Source of the DNA: Prosthecobacter sp.
GTDB lineage: Bacteria; Verrucomicrobiota; Verrucomicrobiia; Verrucomicrobiales; Verrucomicrobiaceae
Direction of reading: 5' to 3'
Length of the DNA: 64,000 bases
NCBI GenBank assembly: GCA_019186985.1
Contig: JABARQ010000004.1
Location: forward strand, 62,001-126,000
The notes beneath the pieces are model-generated. The model made no database searches. It saw only the letters and a list, made by a program, of their open reading frames with translations, and had not been told where the DNA came from. How positions within the stretch are numbered: the first letter of the stretch is position 1; each line of letters opens with the position of its first letter. Shown piece by piece: positions 51,047 through 64,000 of the stretch. The translations under genes were made by a program, and so were the position numbers.

Positions 51047-51117
51047 TCAATAACTCTGGAGCCCATATTCCACGGGCTTTGGACGGCATCAGGGGGCTGT
51101 CTTTTGACACCCCAATC

Positions 51118-52353
51118 ATGGTCATGCATGACAAAAGCATGACAACTCGGCCCTCTTCCCCCAGGGCCAAAGGCAGGCCCGTGGCCGTCGTCAAACAAGG
51201 CTCCGCCGCCGTCCCCATCTACCGCGGCTCCTGCCGGGGTGTCCCCAGGTTCACCATCGCCTTCTACCTCAATCAGCAACGACGCAGGCTCACCTTCGGC
51301 TCCCTCGACGCCGCCAAGGACGAGGCACGCAAAGTCGCCCTCAACATCCAGCGCGGCATGAGCACCGACAACGACCTGCGCCCCCAGGACCGGGAAGCTC
51401 TCCGAACGGTTCAGGACATGCTCAGCCCCCTCAGCCTGCCCCTCGTGTCCGTGGTCGAGGAATACCTCCAATGCCGACGCAAGCTCGGCGATGTTCCTCT
51501 GCTGACCGCCGTCGAGGACTTCCTCGCCCGGTCACGCAGCTACCAGCCCGGCATCACCGTGTCCCAGGTGGTCGAGGAGCTCCTCCTGCTCAAGAGGCAG
51601 GACGGCATTAATGGGCACTACCTCAAGCTGCTGGAGGGGAATCTTCGCCAGTTTGCCCAAACCTTTGATGGCGAAATCACGAAGGTCACGGGAGCCATGA
51701 TCGACAGCTGGCTCCGCCGTGGCGATCACTCCATGGTCACACGCAACAACTGGCTCAAGCGCGTGAAGGAGCTGTTCTCCTTCGCCAAGCGGCGAGGCTA
51801 CCTGCCCAAGAACGAACCCACGGTCGCCGAGGAGCTCAAGCGCGGCAAGCAGGTGGACACGGACGTCGGCATCTTCACCCCCGAGCAGATGGAAAAGCTC
51901 ATGCGGGCTGCCTCAGCGGATCTGATACCCATCCTGGCCATTGGCGGGTTCTCGGGCCTGCGGGGGGCGGAAATCGCCCGCCTGAACTGGAGTGCCGTGG
52001 ACCTGGGACGCAAGATCATCGAGCTGCGAGCCGGTCAGGCCAAGACGGCCTCACGCCGGATCGTGCCGGTCAGCGACAACCTCGCCAGCTGGCTGGAGAA
52101 GGTGGAGAGGCGTGGACCGGTGGTTCCTGACGCTGCCCTTTTCATGAAGGCACGCCGTCTGGCCAGGAGCTTGGGGCTGGCATGGCCGCACAACGCCCTG
52201 AGGCATTCCTACATCAGCTACCGGATCGCGGTGGTGCAGAGTGCGGCTCAGGTGGCCCTGGAGGCAGGGAACTCCCCGGCGATCATCTTCAAGCACTACC
52301 GGGAACTGGTGACGAGGGAGGCGGCCGACCAGTGGTTCGGCATCCTGCCATGA
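51118..52353 (+). CDS. Tyrosine recombinase / integrase
   Basis: The 411-residue integrase carries an N-terminal arm-binding segment (about 30-80), a SAM-like core-binding domain (about 155-240) and the catalytic domain with Arg-282 (SGLRGAEIARLNW), His-358 and Arg-362 (PHNALRHSYISY), His-393 and the nucleophile Tyr-394 (FKHYREL). ATG 51118 is used; a TTG at 51079 and other Mets at 51124 and 51139 are possible. It lies at the left edge of the island, directly after the truncated DUF1501 start, and transcribes into the island. Confidence 0.93.
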   Translation: MVMHDKSMTTRPSSPRAKGRPVAVVKQGSAAVPIYRGSCRGVPRFTIAFYLNQQRRRLTFGSLDAAKDEARKVALNIQRGMSTDNDLRPQDREALRTVQDMLSPLSLPLVSVVEEYLQCRRKLGDVPLLTAVEDFLARSRSYQPGITVSQVVEELLLLKRQDGINGHYLKLLEGNLRQFAQTFDGEITKVTGAMIDSWLRRGDHSMVTRNNWLKRVKELFSFAKRRGYLPKNEPTVAEELKRGKQVDTDVGIFTPEQMEKLMRAASADLIPILAIGGFSGLRGAEIARLNWSAVDLGRKIIELRAGQAKTASRRIVPVSDNLASWLEKVERRGPVVPDAALFMKARRLARSLGLAWPHNALRHSYISYRIAVVQSAAQVALEAGNSPAIIFKHYRELVTREAADQWFGILP

Positions 52354-52389: not shown

Positions 52390-52599
52390 ATGAACCCCAC
52401 ACCCCAGACACACTCGCCCTTCTTGAAGAAAAAACCGCTCGCCGCCCTGCTGGGGGTAAGTTCACGAACCATCGACAACTGGGTGGCGCAGCGGATGATC
52501 CCGTATCTGGCGACGAGTCCGAGGATGCACCTCTTTGATGTTGAGGCGGTTAAGGAGGCACTGCAGAAGCGCTTCGGAGTTGAGCCTCGCGAGATGTAG
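52390..52599 (+). CDS. Small HTH protein, excisionase-like
   Basis: The 69-residue protein is essentially one winged/MerR-type helix-turn-helix: KKPLAALLGVSSRTIDNWVAQRMIPYLATSPRMHLFDVEAVKEAL. This is the form of recombination directionality factors and of small DNA-binding regulators encoded next to integrases. It follows the integrase by 36 bp on the same strand, so it may be co-transcribed and control excision. Confidence 0.82.
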   Translation: MNPTPQTHSPFLKKKPLAALLGVSSRTIDNWVAQRMIPYLATSPRMHLFDVEAVKEALQKRFGVEPREM

Positions 52600-52893
52600 C
52601 TGCGTGTGACCTTGTTGCGCAACGAAGTGCGGACAAGTGATCGTCTCAGCGCATCAGACAAGAGGATTGGCACATTTTGTGGATGTGACCTGAAAGACAC
52701 GGAGCCGGTGATCGAAATGTCATCAGCGGGCTTCACGGTGTCCGCTGCATCAACCAACAACACTCGCTCGAAACCTGTTGTCCCCGGGACTCAGTTCAAG
52801 CAGAGCCCGTTCGATTCAATCGAACGGGCTTTTTGTTGGAGTGCACCCCATGGCACCCGCCATTCACCGCGACTCAAGCCCCTCACCTGCAAT
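52600..52893. other. Intergenic region at the left of the island, with terminator
   Basis: About 290 bp without a convincing gene. A frame of 109 codons exists on the plus strand (52606-52935), but it crosses the terminator at 52804 and the repeated leader, and its product shows no domain. The only recognisable structure is the terminator. The segment may hold an attachment site, but no duplicate is visible in the window. Confidence 0.6.
52804..52835 (+). terminator. Rho-independent terminator
   Basis: The perfect 11-bp stem AGCCCGTTCGA / TCGAACGGGCT with a 5-nt loop is followed by TTTTG. It isolates the integrase/HTH operon from the following leader and gene. Confidence 0.92.
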
Positions 52894-52942
52894 CATTTGG
52901 TGATGCAAACGGATGGATTCCCGAAGTCACGGTGACGAGGGC
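52894..52942 (+). promoter_or_regulatory. Island leader repeat, copy A
   Basis: This is a 49-nt copy of the repeated leader (see findings). The mini-ORF is 52897-52935, starting TTG GTG ATG CAA ACG and ending TCA CGG TGA, 13 codons including the stop. The next gene starts 14 bp after the mini-ORF stop. Codons 6-9 differ from the other copies (GAT GGA TTC CCG) and match the degraded copy at 57437. Confidence 0.7.
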
Positions 52943-52949
52943 TTCCTCC

Positions 52950-53531
52950 ATGGACCTTCCTGACCTTTTCCCCACCAACCCCATGCAGTTGCGCACGCTT
53001 CGCGGTTACAACTTTTCCGAAGTCTCCTCCGCCATGCAGAAGGCCATCCGCAGGGGGGATGCCGCCCTGGCCGGCTACTGGGCCTTGGAACTCTGGAGCA
53101 GCGGGTTTGGCAAGTATGTGTGGAAGCGCCTGCTTACCGTCAGCGCGGAAGACTGCTGGGGCATTCTCACCCAGGAAGTGAGAGCGCTGCATGATTCCTA
53201 CCTGGTGATCAACGAGGGCGTGCCGCCGAAGCATGCGAAGGGCCGCATCTTCATCAGCAAGGCGGTCATCCTGCTGTGCCTGTCCAAAAAGAGCCGTGAC
53301 CCCGATCACTTGCAGAACATGGTCTATGACCAGCAGGCGGGGCTGGAGGCGGAAACGCTGGCGCAGGAACTGCGTGAGAGCGGGGAGTATGTGGCCATCC
53401 CCGAGTATGCCTATGACTGCCACACGCGGGAGGGCAAGAAGCGCGGGAAGACGAAGACGGACTTCTTCAAGGCGGAGCAGGCGGCCCTGGAGCCGTTCCA
53501 GCCGGGCCTGTTTGATCACTTGATCGAATAG
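52950..53531 (+). CDS. Protein resembling the C-terminal domain of MgsA/RarA-type AAA+ ATPases
   Basis: The 193-residue protein lacks Walker motifs. It shows the pattern of the MgsA/RarA C-terminal oligomerisation domain: MQKAIRRGDAALAGYWALELWSSGFGKYVWKRLLTVSAEDCWG, followed by GRIFISKAVILLCLSKKSRDPDHLQ. The C-terminal part is Lys/Arg-rich. A stand-alone copy of this domain is known from phages and plasmids and may work with a separate clamp-loader-like AAA+ protein; one is encoded at 60930. ATG 52950 follows leader copy A. The family call is from pattern memory. Confidence 0.7.
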   Translation: MDLPDLFPTNPMQLRTLRGYNFSEVSSAMQKAIRRGDAALAGYWALELWSSGFGKYVWKRLLTVSAEDCWGILTQEVRALHDSYLVINEGVPPKHAKGRIFISKAVILLCLSKKSRDPDHLQNMVYDQQAGLEAETLAQELRESGEYVAIPEYAYDCHTREGKKRGKTKTDFFKAEQAALEPFQPGLFDHLIE

Positions 53532-53799
53532 GCAAAGAGATGCAGCCGAGCAGGTCTTTGGACACATCAAAAAACGATTTCTGATGACGGAATGGGGGGG
53601 CGTGACGGGAGACGTCAGCACGTCCAGAGAGGAGGCATTCAGCACACAACCTCGTTCCTCCTTCTTGACGCTGTGCACACATCGGCGAATCTCCTTTTGG
53701 AGTCGCCCCCAGCGTCGGACGCAAAATGTGTAGGCCGCTGCTGCGTAGGCAGCTGTGAATCAGGATCTTCACGCTGTCACCGACTCCGCATTAACCGTC

Positions 53800-54447
53800 A
53801 TGCCACGCTGCCACATCTACCACAAGCCAACCGGCACACTTTTGGCGCGCGACCTGTACCATCACCAGCATTCGTGGCTGCTGGACCTGCATGACTGTCA
53901 TGAACTGCTGCCTGTAGGTGCTTACATGGAGGTGAAAAAGAATGAGCAGATCACATGCAAGGGTGAAGAAGTGGGGAGCCTACTGGTCGGCCGTGAAGCG
54001 CTCATGCCTCTGCCTCGAGGTGACTGGACAGGGTGCTGCGGCCCGATGGGAGGTCGGAAAAATGTGCTCGCCCCGGATGAGGAAACTCCTATCGCCTGGG
54101 AGACGGCGGACTGCCATACCCCACATTACGTCCGCATTGATCCTGGCGAGTGGGAACTGAAGCAGGTTGACCAAGAAAACGGACTCTGCTGGGTGGCATG
54201 GATTCATCATCAAGGTGAAAAACAGCTCCTGAGCGCTTCCTATGGCCGTGATGAAAATGAGGCGAAAAAGCGTCTCATCTCTGCCGCCCAGAAGCGGTTG
54301 GAGAACGAGGCTCACTACTGCTCCCAACCGGGGAAAATCCTCAATGCCAAGATTGAGACTGCAGACGTGGCTGACTTCGTCAACTCCATGGGGTGCAAAC
54401 CAACCGAGGTTCTCAGCCAAGTGAAATGGCTCTTCCGGAAGTATTGA
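53800..54447 (+). CDS. Hypothetical island protein, Cys/His-rich
   Basis: This is a 215-residue protein of no recognised family. It starts MPRCHIYHKPTGTLLARDLYHHQHSWLLDLHDCHELLP and has a central DWTGCCGPMGGRKNVLAPDEE segment, conserved-looking aromatic residues (CWVAWIHHQGEKQLLSASYGRDENEAKKRLISAAQKRL), and an acidic C-terminal helix. No signal or membrane segment is present, so it is probably cytoplasmic. The 268-bp gap before it shows nothing recognisable. Base composition is lower in GC than the chromosome, in line with recent acquisition. Confidence 0.65.
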   Translation: MPRCHIYHKPTGTLLARDLYHHQHSWLLDLHDCHELLPVGAYMEVKKNEQITCKGEEVGSLLVGREALMPLPRGDWTGCCGPMGGRKNVLAPDEETPIAWETADCHTPHYVRIDPGEWELKQVDQENGLCWVAWIHHQGEKQLLSASYGRDENEAKKRLISAAQKRLENEAHYCSQPGKILNAKIETADVADFVNSMGCKPTEVLSQVKWLFRKY

Positions 54448-54604
54448 AAACCCGCCTGCCTTTCAACCATGCTTGAGATCACCTTTGGCGATATTGCATA
54501 CGGCTGCGCTAAGACATACCTCAACACAAGGAACGAGCGAATCGAAGCACATGCGCCAAACACAAAGCGCATAAGGAAAGTCTCAGAGCGAAAGCCGGGC
54601 TTGT

Positions 54605-55372
54605 TCAATCAGAGGGGCATTGGCTGGCTCGTTCCTCGCAGCCATGCACCCTTTCATGTCCGCGTTCCTCTTTTGCTGGTAGGTGCGATGAAAGACTGTT
54701 TGCTATTCGAACTGCCTCTTCTGCTAATAAACTGTATGATTCGCGCGACTTGCGACCCGGGTGGTAGAAGTCAACCACGACAAGGCCGTCAGGGGTAGAA
54801 TAGCTAAAATCAGTTCCGGCGATCCTCTGCGCTCCCGGGAATAAAACATCCTGAACTGTGCCATATGTGTAGCCGCAGATTACGAATCTGGGTGCCAATA
54901 AGGCAACTTGTCGTCGCAGGAAGCTCCCATCCCTCAATGCGATTTCTCTGAGATTGCCGTTGTCGGAGTAAGCTATGCCATCTGCCTTCTTGATGTTAAC
55001 CCAGGCCGATCTAAGCATTGTTTGCCGAGCCTTAGGATAATTCTCAGACCTATCGGCTTCAACATTGAACGACAAACCCAAAAGCGTTGATTCAAACGCG
55101 TATAGCCACTCAATCATTCTATAATGGACGGCTTGATTCGCTGTCCCTCCCACTCGAAGCAATCCTTCATCCTTTAAAATTCCTGCTGCGTGATTCCACT
55201 GCCCACCTCCATGCGCTTCCTTCAAAAGGCACATTATTCGCAATGGACTCTCAAGCCACCTTACTGGATCGGTGGCACCATCGTAGATAAAATCGATCTC
55301 TGGGTTACCATAGGACGCGAGCCACTCGTGCTCAAGATGTTGGTCCAAATCTTTGAATTCGCTTGCTGTCAT
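54605..55372 (-). CDS. Hypothetical protein, possible uracil-DNA-glycosylase-like fold
   Basis: The 255-residue protein is GC-poor relative to its surroundings. It has PLRIMCLLKEAHGGGQWNHAAGIL near residue 42, a central helical part, LLAPRFVICGYTYGTVQDVLF near 165, and VVVDFYHPGRKSRESY near 200. The order of an N-terminal Leu-Lys-Glu loop, a buried ICGYTYG strand and a His-Pro motif recalls the UDG superfamily, but key catalytic residues cannot be assigned. Its start lies just after an attC-like palindrome on the same strand, as a gene in a cassette would. The last 30 residues may be read-through. Confidence 0.6.
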   Translation of the reverse strand: MTASEFKDLDQHLEHEWLASYGNPEIDFIYDGATDPVRWLESPLRIMCLLKEAHGGGQWNHAAGILKDEGLLRVGGTANQAVHYRMIEWLYAFESTLLGLSFNVEADRSENYPKARQTMLRSAWVNIKKADGIAYSDNGNLREIALRDGSFLRRQVALLAPRFVICGYTYGTVQDVLFPGAQRIAGTDFSYSTPDGLVVVDFYHPGRKSRESYSLLAEEAVRIANSLSSHLPAKEERGHERVHGCEERASQCPSD

Positions 55373-55389
55373 AGGTCATTTCTTTTGAA

Positions 55390-55600
55390 CGTCTAAGCTC
55401 ACCCACAGCAGGGGCGGCGGAGAGCGTGGAAACGGTGAGATGCTAGCAGGTGGCGCACCTCCTGCAAGGGGCGAAGGGGGTTGGCAGCAGGAGGTGTGAC
55501 ACCTGCGGTCGGGCTACGAAAAGCCATCGCCGACACCTCAGCCCCTGCTGTTGGGTGCAGTGCTTTGTTCGCCCCCGTTCTCGCGGTGAACTTCCTCACT
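55390..55600 (-). repeat. attC-like imperfect palindrome (integron-type cassette boundary?)
   Basis: On the minus strand the segment starts near GAACAAAGCACTGCACCC, includes CAACAGCAGGGGC, and ends in GCCCCTGCTGTGGGTGAGC then TTAGACGTTC, giving long inverted ends around about 150 nt. Translated, it yields an NKALHPTAGA-type peptide, often seen at attC sites in environmental bacteria. It separates two minus-strand genes, each starting or ending within about 30 bp of it. The core sites are not canonical, so the call is tentative. Confidence 0.4.
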
Positions 55601-56291
55601 TCTTCTTCTGCATCTTGCATATGTAGCCCCTGCGAAAGTGTGGCTTATCTGCTGTTATGCCACCGCCTTTGATGTCGGCGCGAAGCGCCGACCTCTCGAG
55701 CTTGTCGTTATAGCCTATCTTTTCGAGTATCGACTTTGAAACAGCAGTAGTGTCATTCCACTGCCAAGGCCCACTCGTGCCTTCGGTGCGCCAACCTCCG
55801 ATCCAGACAGTCTGATCTTCAGCGGGGGCGCTGAAGAGTCGATAAACTCGCTCCCACTCAGACCAAGACTCAAATGCTGCGAGGTCTCCTCCCATCTGGC
55901 GACAGGCATCAACTGCCTCCTTCCAAGAAACCTCGGCGTGAACTAGAGTGTAGGCAAAGTCCCCTCGAACGACCTGCTGGGTCTTCAGTCCTGGCGTGGG
56001 TGGAGAAGTGGCTTGTGTAGCGGAGGTTGCAGGCTGTGCGATGGACTGTGAAGATACTAACGCCTTCAACTCAGCATCTACCTCAAGCGCTGCTTCAAGG
56101 TTACCCTCCTTGGTGAATCGCACTTTGAGTGCCGTGAGGGCATCGGAATACTTCTTCTCTAACGGTGAAACTGCCTGTTGCTTTGCCTTCTCGAATGACA
56201 GCTTGAGTGCAGCGAGTTCAGGCGGTGGGGCTCCAAACAACGGCACGGTCAGAACTAGGAGTGCTAGGTTTGTGATTCGGGCTTCAATCAT
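55596..56291 (-). CDS. Exported protein with C-type-lectin-like domain
   Basis: The 231-residue protein has a signal peptide (MIEARITNLALLVLTVPLFGA), an amphipathic Lys/Glu helix (about 26-75: LKLSFEKAKQQAVSPLEKKYSDAL) of a type common in secreted Verrucomicrobiota proteins, a Pro/Thr linker, and a C-terminal C-type-lectin-like domain. The domain runs from VHAEVSWKEAVDACRQMGGDLAAFESWSEWERVYRLF through WIGGWRTEG...WQWNDTT to RRGYICKMQ. Calcium ligands are incomplete. It probably binds a glycan or protein outside the cytoplasm. Its arrangement with the downstream attC-like repeat suggests a gene cassette. Confidence 0.72.
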   Translation of the reverse strand: MIEARITNLALLVLTVPLFGAPPPELAALKLSFEKAKQQAVSPLEKKYSDALTALKVRFTKEGNLEAALEVDAELKALVSSQSIAQPATSATQATSPPTPGLKTQQVVRGDFAYTLVHAEVSWKEAVDACRQMGGDLAAFESWSEWERVYRLFSAPAEDQTVWIGGWRTEGTSGPWQWNDTTAVSKSILEKIGYNDKLERSALRADIKGGGITADKPHFRRGYICKMQKKK

Positions 56292-56724
56292 AGCGACTTG
56301 TGTGTTGGGCGAGCAGGTGAATTATTGACAAGCTTGTTGTTTTGTCAGCAGCTTTATCTCCGACAAGAATGTTGCTTTGCACCGGGGTTTTCGAGTCATG
56401 TCGTTGCTTTAGCGGCTCATTTGAGTGCAAAGCAACAAAAATGCAGGTTTTTGCTCAAATGAGCAGGTAAAAACCATGTATGAATATTTCGCTCACCGTG
56501 CCAAACCATGAGCAGCTCCACAGAAGGACCCGTCTCATGAATACGAAAGACCTGTTTGTGGGGCATCTGTTAGGGTCTGGATGTGGGTGGTCACATCAAG
56601 TTCAGTCGCGGGGCTGAAAATCCCCATCCCCTGCACTGGCTCGTGCCAGTGAAAAGCATCATCCCTTGTGACCACGAAGCCCATTGATCGAGGCTGCCTG
56701 CACAACATCCAGCTACGGCTCCGT
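56292..56724. other. Gene-free region with nested inverted repeats
   Basis: About 430 bp without a supported gene. TGTTGCTTTGCA (56370-56381) pairs with TGCAAAGCAACA (56426-56437), a perfect 12-bp inverted repeat. GCTCATTTGAG (56414-56424) pairs with CTCAAATGAGC (56454-56464). The two pairings interleave, so only one can form at a time. A separate perfect hairpin CACTGGC-TCGT-GCCAGTG lies at 56634-56651, and GTTGGGC at 56312 fits a GTTRRRY integron core. The AT-rich first half could be an origin, an attenuator or a small-RNA locus. Confidence 0.55.
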
Positions 56725-56774
56725 CAAATGGTGATTAAAATGGTGCGACACACGCAGGCACGGTGATGAGGCCA
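56725..56774 (+). promoter_or_regulatory. Island leader repeat, copy B
   Basis: CAAATGG...GAGGCC in 49 nt. The mini-ORF is 56728-56766 and encodes MVIKMVRHTQAR. The radC-like ATG lies 15 bp after the mini-ORF stop, with AAGGGG between them as a possible ribosome-binding site. Confidence 0.8.
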
Positions 56775-56781
56775 AGGGGCC

Positions 56782-57258
56782 ATGCAACGCAAAGTCCGCT
56801 ATTCCTTTGGCCAGTTCACCATCCAGTCGGTTCGTGAACACGTCCTTGATCCGGTCGTCTGCAATGCGCCCGACCGGCTCATGAAGTATTGGATCGACCA
56901 TATTGAAACCTCACCGCTGCATCAGCCCGACAAGGAGCTGTTCGCCGTGGTTCTTTTCAACACCAAGATCGAAGCCGTAGGCTGGCACCTGGTCAGCCTG
57001 GGCTCGTTGAACGAAACCTGCGCGCATCCACGGGAAATTCTGCGGCCAGTGATCGTGGGAGCCGCCTATGCGTTCGCGATGATGCACAATCACCCGAGCG
57101 GTTGCACCGATCCGAGTGATGCCGACCGGCGCATGACCCGCCGCGTGCGTGAAGCCTCCGAGATCATTGGCATTAACCTGATGGACCATGTGATTGTCGG
57201 TGCCCGCCCCGGGATGCCGCACAGCTACTTCAGCTTCCGCGAAGTTGGGCTCATCTAA
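56782..57258 (+). CDS. RadC-family JAB-domain protein
   Basis: The 158-residue protein is the JAB/JAMM part of RadC (DUF2466). Glu-64 in a KIEAVGW strand, His-102 and His-104 in HNHPSG, and Ser-112 and Asp-115 in DPSDAD complete the metalloprotease-like signature, followed by EIIGINLMDHVIVGA. The N-terminal helix-hairpin-helix of chromosomal RadC is replaced by a short unrelated region (residues 1-45). Such short RadC proteins are common on plasmids, phages and integrative elements; their role is unresolved. Translation starts directly downstream of leader copy B. Confidence 0.92.
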   Translation: MQRKVRYSFGQFTIQSVREHVLDPVVCNAPDRLMKYWIDHIETSPLHQPDKELFAVVLFNTKIEAVGWHLVSLGSLNETCAHPREILRPVIVGAAYAFAMMHNHPSGCTDPSDADRRMTRRVREASEIIGINLMDHVIVGARPGMPHSYFSFREVGLI

Positions 57259-57436
57259 GCTGCCGGAGAAGCGCGGTTGATGATCTCAACAAGTCGCGCT
57301 GATGGTCGCATCAAGTGGACGAGAGGCCGGGCAATCCCCTCATACCAGCCGGGGACTCTGCGCCTGTAAAACGCATCCTACGCGGCAACACGGCGGCTGG
57401 TTCACCACCCTTTTCCAACAGCAGTTCAAGCACCTG

Positions 57437-57470
57437 CAAAATGGTGATTCAAACGGATGGACAACGGTTT
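57437..57470 (+). repeat. Degraded leader repeat, copy C1
   Basis: CAAAATGGTGATTCAAACGG and then ATGGACAACGG match the first half of leader copy A (MVxQTDG), but the frame does not close at codon 13. It lies 47 bp before the full copy C2, in the 321-bp gap between radC-like and ligase genes (57259-57579), which otherwise holds no gene. Confidence 0.6.
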
Positions 57471-57483
57471 CCTGCACCTCCGG

Positions 57484-57532
57484 CAAATGGTGATCAAAAC
57501 GGCGCGACGGCACGCGGGACGGTGACGAGGCC
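57484..57532 (+). promoter_or_regulatory. Island leader repeat, copy C2
   Basis: The same 49-nt frame: mini-ORF 57487-57525 encoding MVIKTARRHAGR, ending CGG TGA CGAGGCC. GGAGGG follows. The ligase ATG is 54 bp after the mini-ORF stop, farther than in the other copies. Confidence 0.75.
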
Positions 57533-57579
57533 GGAGGGAACCCAGCCCTTTGCTGGTCAACAAGCCACCCTCACTGACC

Positions 57580-58476
57580 ATGATCACCACCGCCCAGTCG
57601 CCCATCACCAAGCCCATGCTCGCCGACAAGTGCGAGCGCCTCCATGACCTCACCTTCCCGCTGCTCGCCACGCCCAAGCTCGATGGCATCCGCTGCCTCA
57701 AGATCAACGGACGTGCCCTGACCCGCAGCTTCAAGCCGGTCTCCAACCGCTTCATTCGCGAGTGGATCGAGGCGAACCTCCCCGACGGACTCGATGGCGA
57801 ACTCATCGTGAAAGGCACCACCTTCAATGAAACCGCCGGACACGTCGGACGTGAGAGCGGCGAGCCGGACTTCACCTTCGCCGTCTTCGACTATGTGAGC
57901 GAAGGCCTCGACGTGCCCTATGCTTGCCGGATGCAGGAGCTCGTACGCCTCCCCGACTTTGCACGCGTGGACAAAGTGCTGCCCGAGGAGATCCGCTCGC
58001 TTGAGCAGCTGATGGCTTATGAAGAGCGCTGTGTCGCTGAGGGCTACGAGGGCGTGATGATCCGCACGCCGGGCTCACCCTACAAGTGCGGCCGATCCAC
58101 GGAACGCGAAGGCTACCTGCTCAAGATCAAGCGCTTCGAGGACGCCGAGGCCGTGGTGGTGAGCACCTACGAGGGCATGAGCAATCAGAACGCCGCCGAG
58201 AAGGATGCGTTCGGGCGCACCAAGCGCAGCATGGCGCAGTCCGGCATGGTTGGGCGCGGTGAACTGGGCGGCTTTGTGGTCAGGCATGTGGAGACGGGCA
58301 TCGAGTTCAGACTCGGTTACAACCATGTGGTCGGCGGTGTGGACCGTGTCTCCCTGTGGCAGCAGCGGGAGTCGCTGACGGGACGGTTGGTCAAGTTCAA
58401 GCACCAGCCCAGCGGTGCGAAGGAAGCGCCCAGATTCCCCAAGTTCATCGGCTTTCGCGAGCCGTGGGACCTGTGA
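57580..58476 (+). CDS. ATP-dependent DNA ligase, phage/plasmid type
   Basis: The 298-residue minimal ligase seals nicks through a ligase-AMP intermediate. Nucleotidyltransferase motifs are in order: motif I KLDGIRC with adenylated Lys-33, DGELIV (72-77), motif III FAVFDYV (100-106), motif IV EGVMIR (157-162), and motif V LLKIKRF (180-186). A C-terminal OB fold follows (MVGRGELGGFVVRHV ... VKFKHQPSG). No LigD-type primase or nuclease domain is present. The start MITTAQSPITKPMLAD follows leader copy C2. It probably serves replication or repair of the element. Confidence 0.94.
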   Translation: MITTAQSPITKPMLADKCERLHDLTFPLLATPKLDGIRCLKINGRALTRSFKPVSNRFIREWIEANLPDGLDGELIVKGTTFNETAGHVGRESGEPDFTFAVFDYVSEGLDVPYACRMQELVRLPDFARVDKVLPEEIRSLEQLMAYEERCVAEGYEGVMIRTPGSPYKCGRSTEREGYLLKIKRFEDAEAVVVSTYEGMSNQNAAEKDAFGRTKRSMAQSGMVGRGELGGFVVRHVETGIEFRLGYNHVVGGVDRVSLWQQRESLTGRLVKFKHQPSGAKEAPRFPKFIGFREPWDL

Positions 58477-58489
58477 TCTGAGGCCCCGA

Positions 58490-58539
58490 CAAATGGTGAT
58501 CAAATCGGTGCGACACACGCGGCCACGGTGACGAGGCCA
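58490..58539 (+). promoter_or_regulatory. Island leader repeat, copy D
   Basis: 49-nt leader with mini-ORF 58493-58531 encoding MVIKSVRHTRPR. A GTG at 58528 overlaps the mini-ORF stop and is in frame with the amidoligase gene, so reinitiation across GTGA is conceivable; the ATG at 58585 is 53 bp downstream. It heads the five-gene amidoligase operon. Confidence 0.8.
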
Positions 58540-58584
58540 AGGGGTGCCCTGCATGGGGCCAGTCCTCCGAACCCACCCCTGACC

Positions 58585-59547
58585 ATGAAGCCCTCTGACT
58601 CCCAAGCCGCCCTCATCCAATGGGGCATTGAACTGGAAACCCGCCTGCCTGCCGCTGCCAGCGTGCCCGTCGGTGGCTACCACGCCGGCCTGCCTGTGGT
58701 GGCTGCGATCACCACCGCCGGAGCGAGGTTGAGCGCCCCGGTCTTCAACTCCGAAGCCTGGAAAGCTGAACGCGACGGCTCCATCCGCTGTGAACCCGGC
58801 CAGGTGCCCTGCGAGTTTGTCTCGCCCATCCTCCACGGCGAGGACGGGGTTGAGCACCTCGCCGCCTTCGTGGACTGGCTCAACGCCGTCGGTGCCTCGG
58901 TGGACCGCTCCTGTGGCTGTCACATCACCGTGGGCATCGAGAGCGTGATCGGCACCACCGACCCGAAAGCGGTGAGCGCCTTTATCCGCAAGCTCGCCCA
59001 CATCGCCCGCTGGCACGCCCGCAGCCTCTACGGCCAGACGGGCACCGACCGTCACCTCAACCACTACAGCCACCCGCTCTATGAGCAGACCGCGCAGCAC
59101 ATGCGCAAGCTCGTCACCTGCGAGGAGGAGCGCGTCAAAGCCGAGTGCGCTGAGCACTGCGGGCGCGGCATGGTGAACTTCAGAAAAGCCTTCCGGCGCG
59201 ACCGCAACGGCCGGTTCGTCGGTGTGATCGAGTTCCGCGTCTTTGCCGGCACGCTCAACCTCGACAAAATCCTCCACCACCTCGCCAGCGTGCTCGGCCT
59301 GTGCCGCCGTGCCCACGAGGTCCAGTGCCTCGGCGGGTTCGGCAAGAACAAGGTGCAGCAGAAGCGCACCGCCACCGCGCAGGACGCCCTGCGGTTCCTC
59401 TGGGACTACCTGGGGTGGACCGGCAGCGCGCGGCCCGTGGCCCTGGGGCTCTTCGGCAGGCTGCACGCCGAGTTCCGCCGCTACCGCAAGACCGCCCAGC
59501 GGCTCTGCCAGCAGTTCGACGCCCGCTACCCGGACGCGGACCTTTGA
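58585..59547 (+). CDS. Amidoligase-family protein (COOH-NH2 ligase, glutamine-synthetase-like fold)
   Basis: The 320-residue protein shows the amidoligase family pattern: GIELE (14-18), DGSI (64-67), EFVSPIL (77-83), SCGCHITVGIE (109-119), VNFRKAF (197-203) and EFRVFAGTLN (216-225). The acidic and basic residues in these motifs are those that bind Mg-ATP in the glutamine-synthetase fold. The family is thought to join carboxyl and amino groups, forming isopeptide or peptide bonds. It is followed by a class II glutaminase, which could supply ammonia. The C-terminal 60 residues are basic. The start at 58585 is chosen for family fit. Confidence 0.85.
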   Translation: MKPSDSQAALIQWGIELETRLPAAASVPVGGYHAGLPVVAAITTAGARLSAPVFNSEAWKAERDGSIRCEPGQVPCEFVSPILHGEDGVEHLAAFVDWLNAVGASVDRSCGCHITVGIESVIGTTDPKAVSAFIRKLAHIARWHARSLYGQTGTDRHLNHYSHPLYEQTAQHMRKLVTCEEERVKAECAEHCGRGMVNFRKAFRRDRNGRFVGVIEFRVFAGTLNLDKILHHLASVLGLCRRAHEVQCLGGFGKNKVQQKRTATAQDALRFLWDYLGWTGSARPVALGLFGRLHAEFRRYRKTAQRLCQQFDARYPDADL

Positions 59548-59630
59548 CCCCTTTTGCCTGCGCTGCCCGCAGGCTGCGGGTGGCGGGGGCATGAACCGAA
59601 GCAACCCAAACCCAAGAAACGACGACGACC

Positions 59631-60254
59631 ATGTGTGTGATCCTTGTATGCCCTGAAGAAGTGCGCCCGAAGCCCGAGGTGCTGTATGCCTGCCATGAAG
59701 CCAACCCGCACGGGGCCGGGCTGGCGTGGCGGGAAGGCGGCCGTGTCCGCTGGCAGAAGAACCTGACCACCGGGGAGGTGTTGACCCTGCTCAAGAAGCT
59801 GGAGGGAGAGGTGGTCATCCACTTCCGCTGGGCCAGTGTGGGCGGGGTGGATGCGCGGCTGTGCCATCCGTTCCCGGTCACCCCGAAGGCGAACTTGAGC
59901 CTGTCGGGGATGGCGGAGAGCGTGCTGTTCCACAACGGCACCTGGAGCGGTTATGCCGATGCCCTGGAGAGGCTGGGCGAGGAGCGGGAACTGCCGGGAG
60001 CGCCGATGAGCGACACGCGGGCGGCGGCGCTGCTGGTGCATGCGGCAGGGCCGGAGGTGCTGGACAAGCTGCCGGGGCGCTGGGTGTGGATGAATGCGGC
60101 GGAGACACGGCTTTCCGGAGCCTGGGAAACCTGGCGGGGGATGCAGGTGAGCAACACGCACTTCGTCCCAAGGCTGCGGGCCGCCCAGGCACGGCGCGCC
60201 GCCAAGACCACGCCCTCGCTGCCCCTGCACCAGTCCTGCCTGTTTGCCTGCTAA
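59631..60254 (+). CDS. Class II glutamine amidotransferase (Ntn glutaminase), stand-alone
   Basis: The 207-residue protein starts MCVILVCP, so Cys-2 becomes the N-terminal nucleophile after Met removal. NPHGAGLAW (25-33), HFRWAS (64-69), LCHPFPV (77-83), FHNGTWSGY (100-108) and MSDTRAA follow the GATase II glutamine-binding pattern. No synthase domain is fused, so it must act with a separate acceptor enzyme; the amidoligase 83 bp upstream is the obvious partner. The C-terminal 40 residues are basic and not part of the core. Confidence 0.88.
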   Translation: MCVILVCPEEVRPKPEVLYACHEANPHGAGLAWREGGRVRWQKNLTTGEVLTLLKKLEGEVVIHFRWASVGGVDARLCHPFPVTPKANLSLSGMAESVLFHNGTWSGYADALERLGEERELPGAPMSDTRAAALLVHAAGPEVLDKLPGRWVWMNAAETRLSGAWETWRGMQVSNTHFVPRLRAAQARRAAKTTPSLPLHQSCLFAC

Positions 60255-60279
60255 CCCCAAACCCGAACCTGATACCCTG

Positions 60280-60843
60280 ATGAAACTGTTCAAACTGATC
60301 GCCAGCCGAGCTGGCCAAGTGCTATTCGACGATCGAGTGGAGGCGGAATCCCCGCGTGAAGCGCGGGAGCAGATGAAGGCCCTGCTGGGCATGAGCTCGC
60401 TGACCGGGGTGGTGTATGCCATCACGGAAATCCCCGTGGACCTCATCCAGAGCATTGTGGATGCGAGGCTGGCGGAGGCGGTGCAGCGACTGCAAAGCGG
60501 GCGACCGCCACAGCGGGTGGAGGACTTGATCCGCCCGATTGCCGCTGAGGTGGCGAGGGAGCAGCTGGCGAGCCTGCGCACGGCCCAGCCTGCAAGTGCT
60601 GAACCTCCACCCTCACCCCAGCGCTTCGATGCGTTCACTTCTGGTGAAGCTCCGCCTGAGCCGCCGCCAAGGCCTCGACGAACGCCAAGGCGACCCACAG
60701 CAGACGGGCGCGTGGTGGACTGGAGTGCGGTGCGCAGGCTTTATCGGCGCACCGGTTCCCTCAAGCAGACAGCGGCCCGCTTTGAACTGTCGGTGAACTC
60801 TGTGAAGGCGCGCTGCCGCCGGGAGGGCTGGACCCATGAGTGA
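60280..60843 (+). CDS. Hypothetical protein with C-terminal HTH
   Basis: The 187-residue protein has an N-terminal region of about 95 residues of unknown fold (MKLFKLIASRAGQVLFDDRVEAESPREAREQ), a Pro-rich linker (about 115-145), and a C-terminal helix-turn-helix (VVDWSAVRRLYRRTGSLKQTAARFELSVNSVKARCRREGW) of the kind seen in phage terminase small subunits and element-encoded regulators. The start is ATG 60280. It could be the DNA-binding component of the operon or a regulator of the repeated leaders; that is inference. Confidence 0.75.
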   Translation: MKLFKLIASRAGQVLFDDRVEAESPREAREQMKALLGMSSLTGVVYAITEIPVDLIQSIVDARLAEAVQRLQSGRPPQRVEDLIRPIAAEVAREQLASLRTAQPASAEPPPSPQRFDAFTSGEAPPEPPPRPRRTPRRPTADGRVVDWSAVRRLYRRTGSLKQTAARFELSVNSVKARCRREGWTHE

Positions 60844-60949
60844 GTGTCTCTCCACCATTCAGATGAGCGCGCAGGCGATGGTCACCGCGATTACGAAGCT
60901 CTCCACGCATCCCGGAAAGGAGGTCCATCATGGCATCCAAGCCGCGTGA
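60836..60949 (+). CDS. Possible overlapping small protein (37 aa)
   Basis: ATG 60836 overlaps the end of the HTH gene and opens a 37-codon frame (MSECLSTIQMSAQAMVTAI...) that ends 20 bp inside the AAA+ gene. It fills an otherwise empty 86-bp gap and contains the AAA+ gene's ribosome-binding site within its codons, which would couple the two genes. No homology is recognised, so it could be a chance frame. Confidence 0.3.
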   Translation: MSECLSTIQMSAQAMVTAITKLSTHPGKEVHHGIQAA

Positions 60950-61586
60950 ACGAGCCCTCAAAACGCTTGTGGCCTCCCCGATGAACTGGCGACCACGCCT
61001 GGCGGAGGACTTGATTGGCCAGGCCAGGCGGGTGGCAATGGCGCAGGTGGCCAAAGCGAAACGGCTGGCCAGCGATCCCTCTGCCACGATGAAGCTGCTG
61101 CTCTACGGCCCGCCGGGGGTGGGCAAGACCAGCGTGGTGGAACTGGTGGCAATGCAGCTGGCAGGCACTTCGCTGGCCATTGAGGACTACAACGGACGGG
61201 AGGTGACGGTGGACGTGGTGCGGCAGTGGATGACGCAGCTGCCCTATGGAAGCCTGTTTGCGCCCTGGTCGGTGAAGATCGTCAACGAGCTGGACCGCTG
61301 TTCGCGGGAGGCGCAGGACCTGCTGCTCACCTACCTGGACCGGCTGCCGCCAGGGCGGGCGTTCCTGGGGACGAGCAACCTGCAGCTGGACCTGCTGACG
61401 GAGCGGTTCCAGACGCGGTTCCAGGCGATCAAGCTGCTGCCGCCCACCACGGAGGAGCTGGCGGAGTTCCTGAGCAGCCACTGGGCCGTGCCAGCGGTGA
61501 CGGCCAGCCAGATCGCCGTGGGCAGCGGCGGCTGCGTCAGAGCCGCCCTCGCTGACCTCGAATCCTACCTGGACCAGCAACCCTGA
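60930..61586 (+). CDS. AAA+ ATPase, clamp-loader-like
   Basis: The 218-residue protein has the Walker A motif GPPGVGKT (60-67), a Walker B strand VKIVNELD (116-123 region, Glu-120 and Asp-122), sensor 1 GTSN (147-150), and basic RFQTRF (159-164) where the arginine finger is expected. It has one AAA+ module and a short lid, like small RFC/DnaX-type loaders of phages. ATG 60930 follows AAAGGAGGT at a 6-nt spacing, the best Shine-Dalgarno site seen in the window. It may act with the MgsA-like protein or move the amidoligase complex. Confidence 0.88.
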   Translation: MASKPRERALKTLVASPMNWRPRLAEDLIGQARRVAMAQVAKAKRLASDPSATMKLLLYGPPGVGKTSVVELVAMQLAGTSLAIEDYNGREVTVDVVRQWMTQLPYGSLFAPWSVKIVNELDRCSREAQDLLLTYLDRLPPGRAFLGTSNLQLDLLTERFQTRFQAIKLLPPTTEELAEFLSSHWAVPAVTASQIAVGSGGCVRAALADLESYLDQQP

Positions 61587-61612
61587 AATCAACCCAACAG
61601 AGAGAACGACCG

Positions 61613-62017
61613 ATGAAGAACATCCAGAGAATGATTGAGGAGCGAGGCGGCTATGAGGCCGTGCGGGAGAACTACCTGAGGTTGGAGAACCCGCCGTTCA
61701 TGCGGCTGGCGGTGGAGGTGATTGGCGGGCCGTATGAGAACGGCGGTTATGAGGTGAGCGTGGCGCACTACGGGGAGCAGAACGGTGATGTGATGCGTGA
61801 CCCGGAGATCACGTTCCTGGTGGTGCCAGCGGAACAAGGAACGACCTGGACGCCGCTCACGTTCGAGAACAGCTACATGGGCTGCTATCAGGTGGTGGCG
61901 GAGGTGACGCGGGAAGGCCGGCTGAAGGTGCGGAATGCAGCGCTGCTGCGCGACCTGCGGGACTTCGCCAACCAGTGGGACCTCAACCTCATGGAGCAGG
62001 GCTTTGGAAAGGCGTGA
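61613..62017 (+). CDS. Small conserved mobile-element protein (DUF6908-like)
   Basis: The 134-residue protein starts MKNIQRMIEERGGYEAVRENYLRLENPPFMRLAVEVIG. Its centre, VSVAHYGEQNGDVMRDPEITFLV, resembles the signature of small phage/plasmid proteins grouped as DUF6908; the assignment is from memory. No catalytic motif is seen. It is the last gene of the amidoligase operon, 26 bp after the AAA+ gene and ahead of leader copy E. Confidence 0.72.
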   Translation: MKNIQRMIEERGGYEAVRENYLRLENPPFMRLAVEVIGGPYENGGYEVSVAHYGEQNGDVMRDPEITFLVVPAEQGTTWTPLTFENSYMGCYQVVAEVTREGRLKVRNAALLRDLRDFANQWDLNLMEQGFGKA

Positions 62018-62025
62018 TGGGCGAT

Positions 62026-62075
62026 CAAATGGTGATGCAAACGGTGCGACACACGAAGTCACGGTGACGAGGCCA
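62026..62075 (+). promoter_or_regulatory. Island leader repeat, copy E
   Basis: 49-nt leader; mini-ORF 62029-62067 encodes MVMQTVRHTKSR. AGGAGG lies 7 bp after its stop, in front of an ATG at 62089 that is in frame with the next gene. Confidence 0.8.
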
Positions 62076-62115
62076 GGAGGCGGTCCGCATGGGCCGCCTT
62101 CCATCCCTCAACACC

Positions 62116-62460
62116 ATGAGCAAGAAAGCACTCGTCGAACAACTCCGCCTCCGACTCGCCAGCAACGACCGCTGGGCTCTGCGCGCTCTTCTGCGCATCT
62201 ACCAGAACCAGACTACCGACGAACAGACGCGGGACACCACCCTGGAGCGCAATGGCATCGGGTTCACCGGTCCCGATGCTGAAATCCTCTCCAGCTTTAC
62301 CCGGCAGTATCAAAGGCGCGGATGCCTGAGTCCAAAGCAGATGGCCATTCTGCACCGCCGCATCCCGGCCTACGCGCGCCAAATCGTGCAGCACGGGGAC
62401 ACCCGAAGGCTTGAAACTGCCCTCGGTGGCCATGCAGCCTCTCAGGCAGCACACGCCTGA
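62116..62460 (+). CDS. Small conserved phage/plasmid-type protein
   Basis: The 114-residue protein starts MSKKALVEQLRLRLASNDRWALRALLRIYQNQTTDEQ. NGIGFTGPDAEILSSFTRQYQRRGCLSPKQMAILHRRIPAYARQIV follows, a compact helical module frequent in phage and plasmid proteins. ATG 62089 (in frame, after AGGAGG) would add nine residues and is also possible. The gene ends 1 bp before the stop codon of the convergent polymerase gene. Confidence 0.72.
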   Translation: MSKKALVEQLRLRLASNDRWALRALLRIYQNQTTDEQTRDTTLERNGIGFTGPDAEILSSFTRQYQRRGCLSPKQMAILHRRIPAYARQIVQHGDTRRLETALGGHAASQAAHA

Positions 62461-62461
62461 A

Positions 62462-64000
62462 TCATGGCAACACAGTCCTGGGTTTGGTGACCTGACGCAC
62501 TTCCAGCGTAAAGCCCTGATAATTGTCGAACGGGCGCACCGTGCCGGTGACTTGAACCACCGGAAAGCGCACTGTGGCAATGCCCCAGGCCCGATAAGCG
62601 GCTGCGAAGATTTCGCATTCCACGATGCCTGATCGGTCGCAGATTGAGATGAACTTCATGGGCTGGCCATCCTGCTGAAGATGGGAGCGGCTGACGATGA
62701 TGAGACCACAGACGGTCACGGTTTGATTAGGGTAGCGATGCAGATCGGCAATCGGGCAGTAGGAGGGCCAGGCGATCCCGTCGTGAAGGTCGAGCGGATG
62801 GCCTCCGATGGTGAAGCCCATGAGCTCCATCTCATCACGCAGCTTCTGGAGTTTCGTGGGTTCCTCCCGAAAGGTGGTGCGGAGAGCGTCGGATGATGGC
62901 AGCAGCCAGTCCGCCCCAGTGCCGGCCTCCTGGGCGCTGTGAAGGCAATGCCAGAAGTGTTCTGTTCTGCTCGCGCCCAAGCCGTCGAAGGCACCGCAGC
63001 GGATGAGGTTGAGCGATTCGGTGGAGTCGGGTCTGACACGATCACAGAAGTCTCGCACGCCACTGAAAGAGGCCCGGGCAATCTCCCTGCGCCAGCGTTC
63101 CAGCATTCCTGCACTGAGGTCTTTGATGACGTGGATCGGCACGCGGATGGATTGCCCGAGTGGCGGCGCGGGCGTGCCGTGTGGAACGCAAAGCTCCTCC
63201 ACAGTGAAAGCATCGCTGGCGTGATTGATATTGGGAGGCAGAAAACCAATGCCGAGCCTGCGCGCCTCCAGGGTGTAAACCAGCCGCGAGTAGAACCCCT
63301 TCCCGTTGGTGAGGACCCCGGCCAGGAACTCGGCTGGATGGTAGTGTTTCATGTAAGCGCCCTGGTAGGCTTCCACGGCGTAGGCGGTGCTGTGGGCGCG
63401 GCAGAAGGCATAGCCCTGAAATCCGGCCACCAGCGCCCAGACGCGCTCGATACTGGCTTCATCCCTGCCGCTGTTCCGGGCGGCTGCGATGAACTCCTGC
63501 TTCAAGGCCTCCACCTTGCCCTGGTCCTGTTTGACCAAGGCCCGCCTCAACACGTCACCTCGTCCGGGTTGGAGTCCGGCAAAGGCTTCGCAGATTTGCA
63601 GGATGTGCTCCTCGTAGGCCACGACCCCGAAGGTTGAGCGCAGAACGGGCTCCAGGCTATGGTGGGGGTATTCCACCGGTTCCAGACCTTGGGCACGGCG
63701 GGCGAACTGGGTCTTTTTCAGCCCGTTGGCAGCGCCCGGGCGGATCACAGAAACGATGGCGACCAGGCGGTCGATGTCGCGCACGCCCGCCATGCAGGCC
63801 AGGCTCGTCATGGCCGGGCTCTCGATGTGATGAACACCACGAGCATTGCCCGTGGCGATCATGTTCCAGACCCCGGGATCACTCCACGGCTCAACAGATT
63901 CAGAGCGTGGTGGGCATTCCGTGCCACCCAGACCTCCAACTTCGAGGGCATCCAGACGCACGGTCCTGCCCTGACTGCTGAGGCTGGCTTCGGTGTCGCG
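62462..64000 (-). CDS. DnaE-type DNA polymerase III alpha subunit (5' partial)
   Basis: The frame is open to the right edge, so only the C-terminal 512 residues are seen. They cover the fingers and downstream parts of a C-family polymerase: VVAYEEHILQICEAFAGLQPGRGDVLRRALVKQD, GYAFCRAHSTAYAVEAYQGAYMKHYHPAEFLAGVLTNGKGFYSRLVYTLEARRLGI, a helix-hairpin-helix region (LIRCGAFDGLGASR), and an OB fold (QTVTVCGLIIVSRSHLQQDGQPMKFISICDRSG). The size and short C-terminus favour an accessory, DnaE2-like enzyme over the replicative one, but the catalytic palm is outside the window. It is transcribed toward the leader-driven genes. Confidence 0.88.
   Translation of the reverse strand, partial: RDTEASLSSQGRTVRLDALEVGGLGGTECPPRSESVEPWSDPGVWNMIATGNARGVHHIESPAMTSLACMAGVRDIDRLVAIVSVIRPGAANGLKKTQFARRAQGLEPVEYPHHSLEPVLRSTFGVVAYEEHILQICEAFAGLQPGRGDVLRRALVKQDQGKVEALKQEFIAAARNSGRDEASIERVWALVAGFQGYAFCRAHSTAYAVEAYQGAYMKHYHPAEFLAGVLTNGKGFYSRLVYTLEARRLGIGFLPPNINHASDAFTVEELCVPHGTPAPPLGQSIRVPIHVIKDLSAGMLERWRREIARASFSGVRDFCDRVRPDSTESLNLIRCGAFDGLGASRTEHFWHCLHSAQEAGTGADWLLPSSDALRTTFREEPTKLQKLRDEMELMGFTIGGHPLDLHDGIAWPSYCPIADLHRYPNQTVTVCGLIIVSRSHLQQDGQPMKFISICDRSGIVECEIFAAAYRAWGIATVRFPVVQVTGTVRPFDNYQGFTLEVRQVTKPRTVLP

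Follow-up and report, generated by a model that had tools for sequence, protein, structure and literature searches.

Why does one 49-nt sequence stand, time after time, ahead of genes in a single bacterial island? The question is raised by a 64,000-nt stretch of the genome of Prosthecobacter sp. (contig JABARQ010000004.1, positions 62,001 to 126,000; this whole stretch is referred to below as the window). A preliminary description of this DNA had listed five full copies and one degraded copy of such a repeat, all of which we found at the positions given, and had left three readings of it: a leader peptide controlling reinitiation, a promoter/operator shared by the genes of the element, or a recombination site between modules. 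Here, we present evidence that a family of temperate tailed phages of Verrucomicrobiales uses the repeat as a start-associated cis-regulatory sequence in its early (replication/recombination) region, and that the island in the window, which has no structural genes, has kept it. The repeat most likely acts as a promoter/operator site in DNA, a reading to which we assign a probability of about 0.6.

The repeat precedes a specific subset of phage early genes

The repeat is not due to chance, as its 49-letter pattern, with three mismatches or fewer allowed, matches three of the copies in the window compared with 0.00 expected (100 shuffles). It is not a local duplication found only in this window either, because a sequence-only profile run on 387 genomes of the order (50 genera) detected it in 28 genomes belonging to seven genera; 92 matches were read in fetched regions. 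In the source genome, every match falls within two islands, the one in the window, which continues past the window's end with a further copy just beyond it (C17:129974), and a shorter version with four copies on the minus strand of contig C11. Ten stretches of IMG/VR viral contigs also match the pattern, one of which (L113) is a partial match within a tail gene. No DNA match was found in the plasmid collection when it was searched with copy B plus radC.

Placement was scored on a set of 79 good copies by counting those that are followed, within 0–100 nt and in the same orientation, by a core early gene. This was the case for 63 of them, while random placement gave a mean of 1.7 and a maximum of 8 (1000 trials). 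Most of the remaining good copies lie before small open reading frames (ORFs) or are cut by contig ends. The copies always point the same way as the gene downstream, and the genes concerned (Table 1) are a defined subset. A copy lies directly upstream of gene A (18/18), RadC (2/2), ligase (10/12), amidoligase (15/18), and gene E (14/15), but rarely of the genes for the helix-turn-helix (HTH) protein (4/18), AAA2 (3/19), or DUF6908 (1/16), and never of those for GATase (0/18) or AAA1 (0/17). At AAA2, no copy is present when the gene is directly 3' of gene E, whereas islands with intervening DNA have one (e.g., C17 versus C11), a pattern that would follow if the copies supplied transcription. 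The distance from the end of the repeat to the start codon is 5–8 nt for gene A, RadC, and small ORFs, and 27–78 nt elsewhere. One part of the initial picture has to be revised: that the copies head five separate transcription units is conjectural, since D and E lie inside a run of codirectional genes, shortly after the stop codon of the preceding gene (Table 1).

That these are phage early genes is seen in genome G012, where contig C45 carries a full prophage of ~33 kb with an integrase, structural genes pointing leftward (tape measure, major head protein, protease, portal, and terminase), and then a rightward early region starting with gene A. All five copies of this prophage are in the early region and none is in the structural region, with nothing above background elsewhere on the 73 kb that were read. 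Similarly, in several repeat-bearing IMG/VR contigs, genes for the terminase large subunit (phrog_15, 6e-83), terminase small subunit, portal, and endolysin adjoin gene A on the opposite strand, and both genes A and E have homologues in known tailed phages.

Two conserved blocks are held at a fixed distance

Each copy consists of two conserved blocks separated by a stretch in which the letters vary and the length is constant. Block I spans approximately positions 2–24 (A-TGGYG-N7-CGGYGCGACA), with a GGATGGA variant occurring 5' of gene A, while block II spans positions 35–48 (CACGGTGACGAGGC, also written (CA)CGGTGACGAGGC). The alignment is gap-free for 70 of 74 distinct copies, and such a fixed length is what one would predict if two protein contacts had to stay in helical phase. 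Moreover, positions 8 and 20, the Y of two GGYG motifs spaced by 12 nt, tend to share a C (seven of the nine copies with C8), a pattern compatible with one protein making both contacts, although it is confounded by descent. The GAG of block II is equally conserved with a start codon 5 or 78 nt away, and translation alone is therefore no explanation for it. In every copy 5' of gene A, GAGG is in the Shine-Dalgarno position, followed after 8–9 nt by ATG. Copy A is also the only one with a conserved segment of ~50 nt upstream, which is maintained across genera and has a sharp left boundary where the islands join unrelated sequence. Pairing between this segment and the repeat was seen by inspection in some copies, but is not conserved. 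The tandem layout of C1 and C2 recurs in G112 and G170.

Table 1. Copies of the 49-nt repeat and associated features in the window
Feature	Position in window	Strand	Remarks
Tyrosine integrase gene of island	51079..52353	+	Left end of structural-gene-less element
Conserved ~50 nt (GCACCCC...GCGAC...)	52844..52893	+	Upstream of copy A only
Copy A	52894..52942	+	7 nt 5' of gene A; its GAGG in Shine-Dalgarno position
Gene A	52950..53531	+	Weak MgsA_C match; phrog_16866; ~45% identical to AAA-ATPase of Microbacterium phages
Copy B	56725..56773	+	8 nt 5' of radC
RadC-family gene	56782..57258	+	
Copy C1 (degraded)	57437..57482	+	Block II replaced
Copy C2	57484..57532	+	5' of DNA ligase gene
ATP-dependent DNA ligase gene	57580..58476	+	
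Copy D	58490..58538	+	Begins 13–14 nt after ligase stop
Amidoligase gene (Amidoligase_2)	58585..59547	+	
Genes that lack a copy in this island	59631..62017	+	GATase-like; HTH protein 60280–60843; AAA 60930–61586; DUF6908 61613–62017
Copy E	62026..62074	+	Begins ~8 nt after DUF6908 stop
Gene E	62116..62460	+	phrog_21015; homologues in Pseudomonas, Stenotrophomonas, and Xanthomonas phages

The mini-ORF shows no sign of selection on a peptide

The 13-codon mini-ORF that had drawn attention to the repeat—a start codon, GTG, eight to ten variable codons, CGG, and TGA—is present in all five full copies in the window (with TTG as the start in copy A), but does not hold as a general property. Among 72 distinct copies from related genomes, the 12-codon frame is intact in 52 and broken in 20, as a result of TAG at codon 10, TAA at codon 4, replacement of TGA by CTT or other codons, CCG or AAG in place of the start codon, or deletions of 1 or 13 nt. 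The stop codon is lost in all four copies 5' of the HTH gene in other genera, and even in the source genome the RadC copy on C11 has a 1-nt deletion that breaks the frame. The indels in other genomes speak directly against a 12-codon leader peptide controlling reinitiation at the next gene, which depended on a constant length of 13 codons. The substitutions tell the same story. When changes were counted along a minimum spanning tree, with edges treated as independent so that P is approximate, 35 of 180 were synonymous versus 48.5 expected (lower tail P = 0.012), and codon positions 1, 2, and 3 had changed 79, 60, and 41 times, respectively, position 3 being the least changed. The synonymous bias that had been suggested as a check thus goes in the opposite direction, contrary to selection on a peptide. 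A leader peptide is refuted as a general explanation, and it has almost no credibility even though the frame survives in the window and in most distinct copies. Coding in the same frame on the reverse strand was ruled out by eye, because TCA at codon 11 (in A, E, and other copies) gives TGA there.

A DNA site is favored over an RNA element

If the repeat acted as RNA, it would do so without a detectable fold. RNAalifold found no shared structure in the alignment of copies (−0.81 kcal/mol), single copies folded no better than shuffles (mean z 0.04), and an Rfam search of the region returned chance-level matches only. The check for compensatory changes was equally negative, since the columns with the strongest covariation by mutual information are not Watson-Crick pairs. 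A structured regulatory RNA, whether riboswitch-like or a protein-binding hairpin, is therefore highly improbable. The observations pointing toward it are that four copies 5' of HTH genes in other genera could form, by inspection, a 6-bp hairpin (mean z −1.5), and that a hairpin directly follows the copy in some long leaders. The hairpins 3' of the copies belong to the leader and vary between genes. In such long leaders, a short hairpin is often found no more than ~10 nt after the repeat (58538–58560 and 62074–62100 in the window, and orthologues), examples being GAAGTCC-GCAT-GGACTTC and ATCGGC-TCAAC-GCCGAT.

The main rival of the promoter/operator reading is an element that would act on translation at the RNA level, i.e., an unstructured 5' or intercistronic sequence read by the ribosome or by an RNA-binding protein, similar to the role proposed for the start-associated sequences (SAS) of cluster K phages. 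We consider it a possible but rather unlikely explanation. It would account for block II reaching the place of a Shine-Dalgarno sequence at gene A, RadC, and small ORFs, for the intercistronic location of D and E (8–14 nt behind stop codons), and for the presence in many copies of GGTGATC, which we take to be complementary to the 3' end of 16S rRNA. However, GGTGATC is not conserved in other genera (TGGCGCCAC, TGGTGCCGC), block II is just as conserved 40–78 nt from the start codon, and the copies are unstructured.

Of the three readings originally put forward, a shared promoter/operator has the strongest support, from position, orientation, gene specificity, fixed length, and lack of RNA structure, although promoter activity itself, like action at the level of DNA and recognition by a protein, is what we infer from these properties. 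The repeat would be a site in DNA, namely a promoter, either alone or combined with an operator, and would be recognized by a dedicated protein, which might be phage-encoded or recruited. Even within a tight run of genes, every copy would initiate or gate its own small early transcription unit, with the RNA emerging at the GAGGC end or close to it. This end would double as a Shine-Dalgarno sequence where the start codon is within ~7 nt. Several points weigh against this proposal. First, a sigma-70 scan revealed no recognizable hexamers overlapping any copy in the window. Second, an RNA-level intercistronic element would be equally natural at D and E, so close behind the previous stop codon. 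Third, at gene A, RadC, and several small genes, block II and the ribosome-binding site overlap. Fourth, the conserved 50 nt upstream of copy A could be the actual promoter, which would put this copy inside the leader. Finally, the two HTH proteins of the island (52390–52599 and 60280–60843) are only candidates for the cognate binding protein.

Copies have served as crossover points

The notion of a recombination site contains an element of truth, as copies have been crossover points at which whole modules were removed, and hybrid 49-nt copies mark these losses exactly. On C11 (L012), ligase was lost between C2 and D, leaving a hybrid copy with the upstream flank of C2 and the downstream flank of D. 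The segment from amidoligase to DUF6908 was lost between D and E in G099 (L077), and gene E was lost in G010 (L072), in both cases with a hybrid copy at the junction. In addition, G007 carries two chromosomal fragments (L089; G007:C1:209343-209379 and 212789-212825, minus strand) that start at the repeat and contain the 5' part of gene E, with 94% identity to gene E of the window and differing 3' ends; no homologous empty locus was found for these fragments. Nevertheless, a site at which a recombinase moves gene cassettes between modules is improbable. The alignments place the crossovers at varying points (in the 3' third for C2/D, in the left two thirds for G010), the genes otherwise keep their order across genera, and copies stand before particular genes, not random ones, in the orientation of the downstream gene. 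Homologous recombination between 49-nt repeats suffices, and both the differing crossover points and the conserved gene order fit such an ordinary process; the removal of modules is probably a side effect. The copies are also unlike integron-type attC sites, which are folded single-strand sites with a fixed crossover point and free cassette order, as they show no fold, differing crossover points, and a conserved gene order.

The repeat is shared by full prophages and elements lacking structural genes

Unlike the prophage in G012, the island in the window is without structural genes. Its order is integrase, HTH, gene A, RadC, ligase, amidoligase, GATase, HTH protein, AAA, DUF6908, gene E, cargo, and AAA2. 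The two islands of the source genome (51079–62460 in the window and onward to ~C17:131000, and C11:41496-49971 in reverse) both have an integrase and early genes and no structural genes. The terminase of the repeat-bearing phage family is absent from the source genome and occurs with high identity in six other Prosthecobacter genomes, and relatives carry full prophages with the same early region as the islands. The window integrase is 85% identical to an integrase in G033 that has a terminase ~16 kb away on the same contig, so that the island could be a prophage minus its structural block. On the other hand, islands from several genera (L074, L078, L082, L086, L095, L097, L100, L101, and L102) have an integrase immediately adjoining gene A, which fits a lineage of structural-gene-less elements, and the islands may be satellites rather than decayed prophages. 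A more speculative extension, which we regard as doubtful, is that the 49-nt sequence might be a shared switch through which one regulator acts both on full phages and on integrase-bearing elements without structural genes (8.5–18 kb, several genera, two in the source genome). The latter would then be phage satellites that have kept the start signal of their helper, and their early genes would come on together with those of the helper.

Three further features of the island deserve mention. Cargo lies between gene E and AAA2 (62462–64000 in the window, minus strand, and onward to C17:128655). It includes a 1397-aa ORF that by eye starts like a Y-family polymerase (UmuC/DinB) and ends as a polymerase of the DnaE type (finger, HHH_6, and OB domains), next to a LexA/UmuD-like ORF; the 1397-aa product is possibly a fused mutagenic polymerase. 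After the integrase and HTH genes, at 52612–52626, there is a near-palindrome, TTGTTGCGCAACGAA, kept as TTGTTGCGCAACAA in other genera, a possible att or operator site. At 52803–52837, between the HTH gene and copy A, there is a terminator-like hairpin with a T run, to which the Rfam search gave a weak RybB score.

Relation to known start-associated sequences

A literature search retrieved no paper on the 49-nt element. Its closest known kind is the SAS/ESAS of cluster K mycobacteriophages, of which it is not a member. These were described as start-associated sequences (PMC3203893), and a later study gave ESAS a length of 46–47 bp and noted SigA-like hexamers together with inverted repeats (PMC11373665). 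The similarities are considerable. Both occur in the non-structural half of a tailed-phage genome, nearly always in one orientation and immediately ahead of the start codons in a recurring subset of genes, and in both conservation extends beyond the ribosome-binding site, with ESAS (~46–50 bp) being near the repeat in length. The differences are equally clear. SAS is a 13-bp sequence 3–7 (3–9) bp from the start codon, whereas the repeat differs in sequence and is 27–78 nt away at many genes. The imperfect 17-bp inverted repeats of ESAS were not found in the 49-nt copies by folding or consensus pairing, and its SigA-like −35/−10 hexamers were not found at any copy in the window. The repeat is instead one continuous unit of fixed length and unrelated sequence, in an unrelated host phylum, and may be 40–78 nt away from the start codon.

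Other systems are more distant. The Rfam radC RNA motif is a structured leader RNA upstream of radC and other DNA-processing genes; its location before radC is similar, whereas the repeat region has no Rfam match. Stoperators are oriented with transcription and stop RNA polymerase during elongation. In cluster A mycobacteriophages, they are multiple asymmetric DNA sites, mostly intergenic, bound by the phage's own repressor (PMC9283540, PMC6550527), and as such resemble the repeat in being multiple asymmetric sites in a temperate phage, but they are 13 bp long and not tied to a start codon. Microbacterium phages of clusters EC, EF, EG, and EI have asymmetric or inverted motifs of 18–30 bp in short intergenic gaps, in similar orientation and ~14–30 bp before start codons (PMC7302621). 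These are likewise intergenic and start-proximal, with sequences and lengths that differ from those of the repeat. The closest phage homologues of gene A that we found are from Microbacterium phages.

Phage start-associated sequences have already been described in detail in actinobacteriophages. An unrelated, longer, and length-fixed version in phages of Verrucomicrobia provides an independent natural experiment, which reveals which genes carry such a sequence, what stays constant (two blocks at a fixed distance), and what does not (a peptide, an RNA fold, or the distance to the start codon). It also supplies a sequence tag by which metagenomes can be searched for these phages and for relatives of theirs that lack structural genes.

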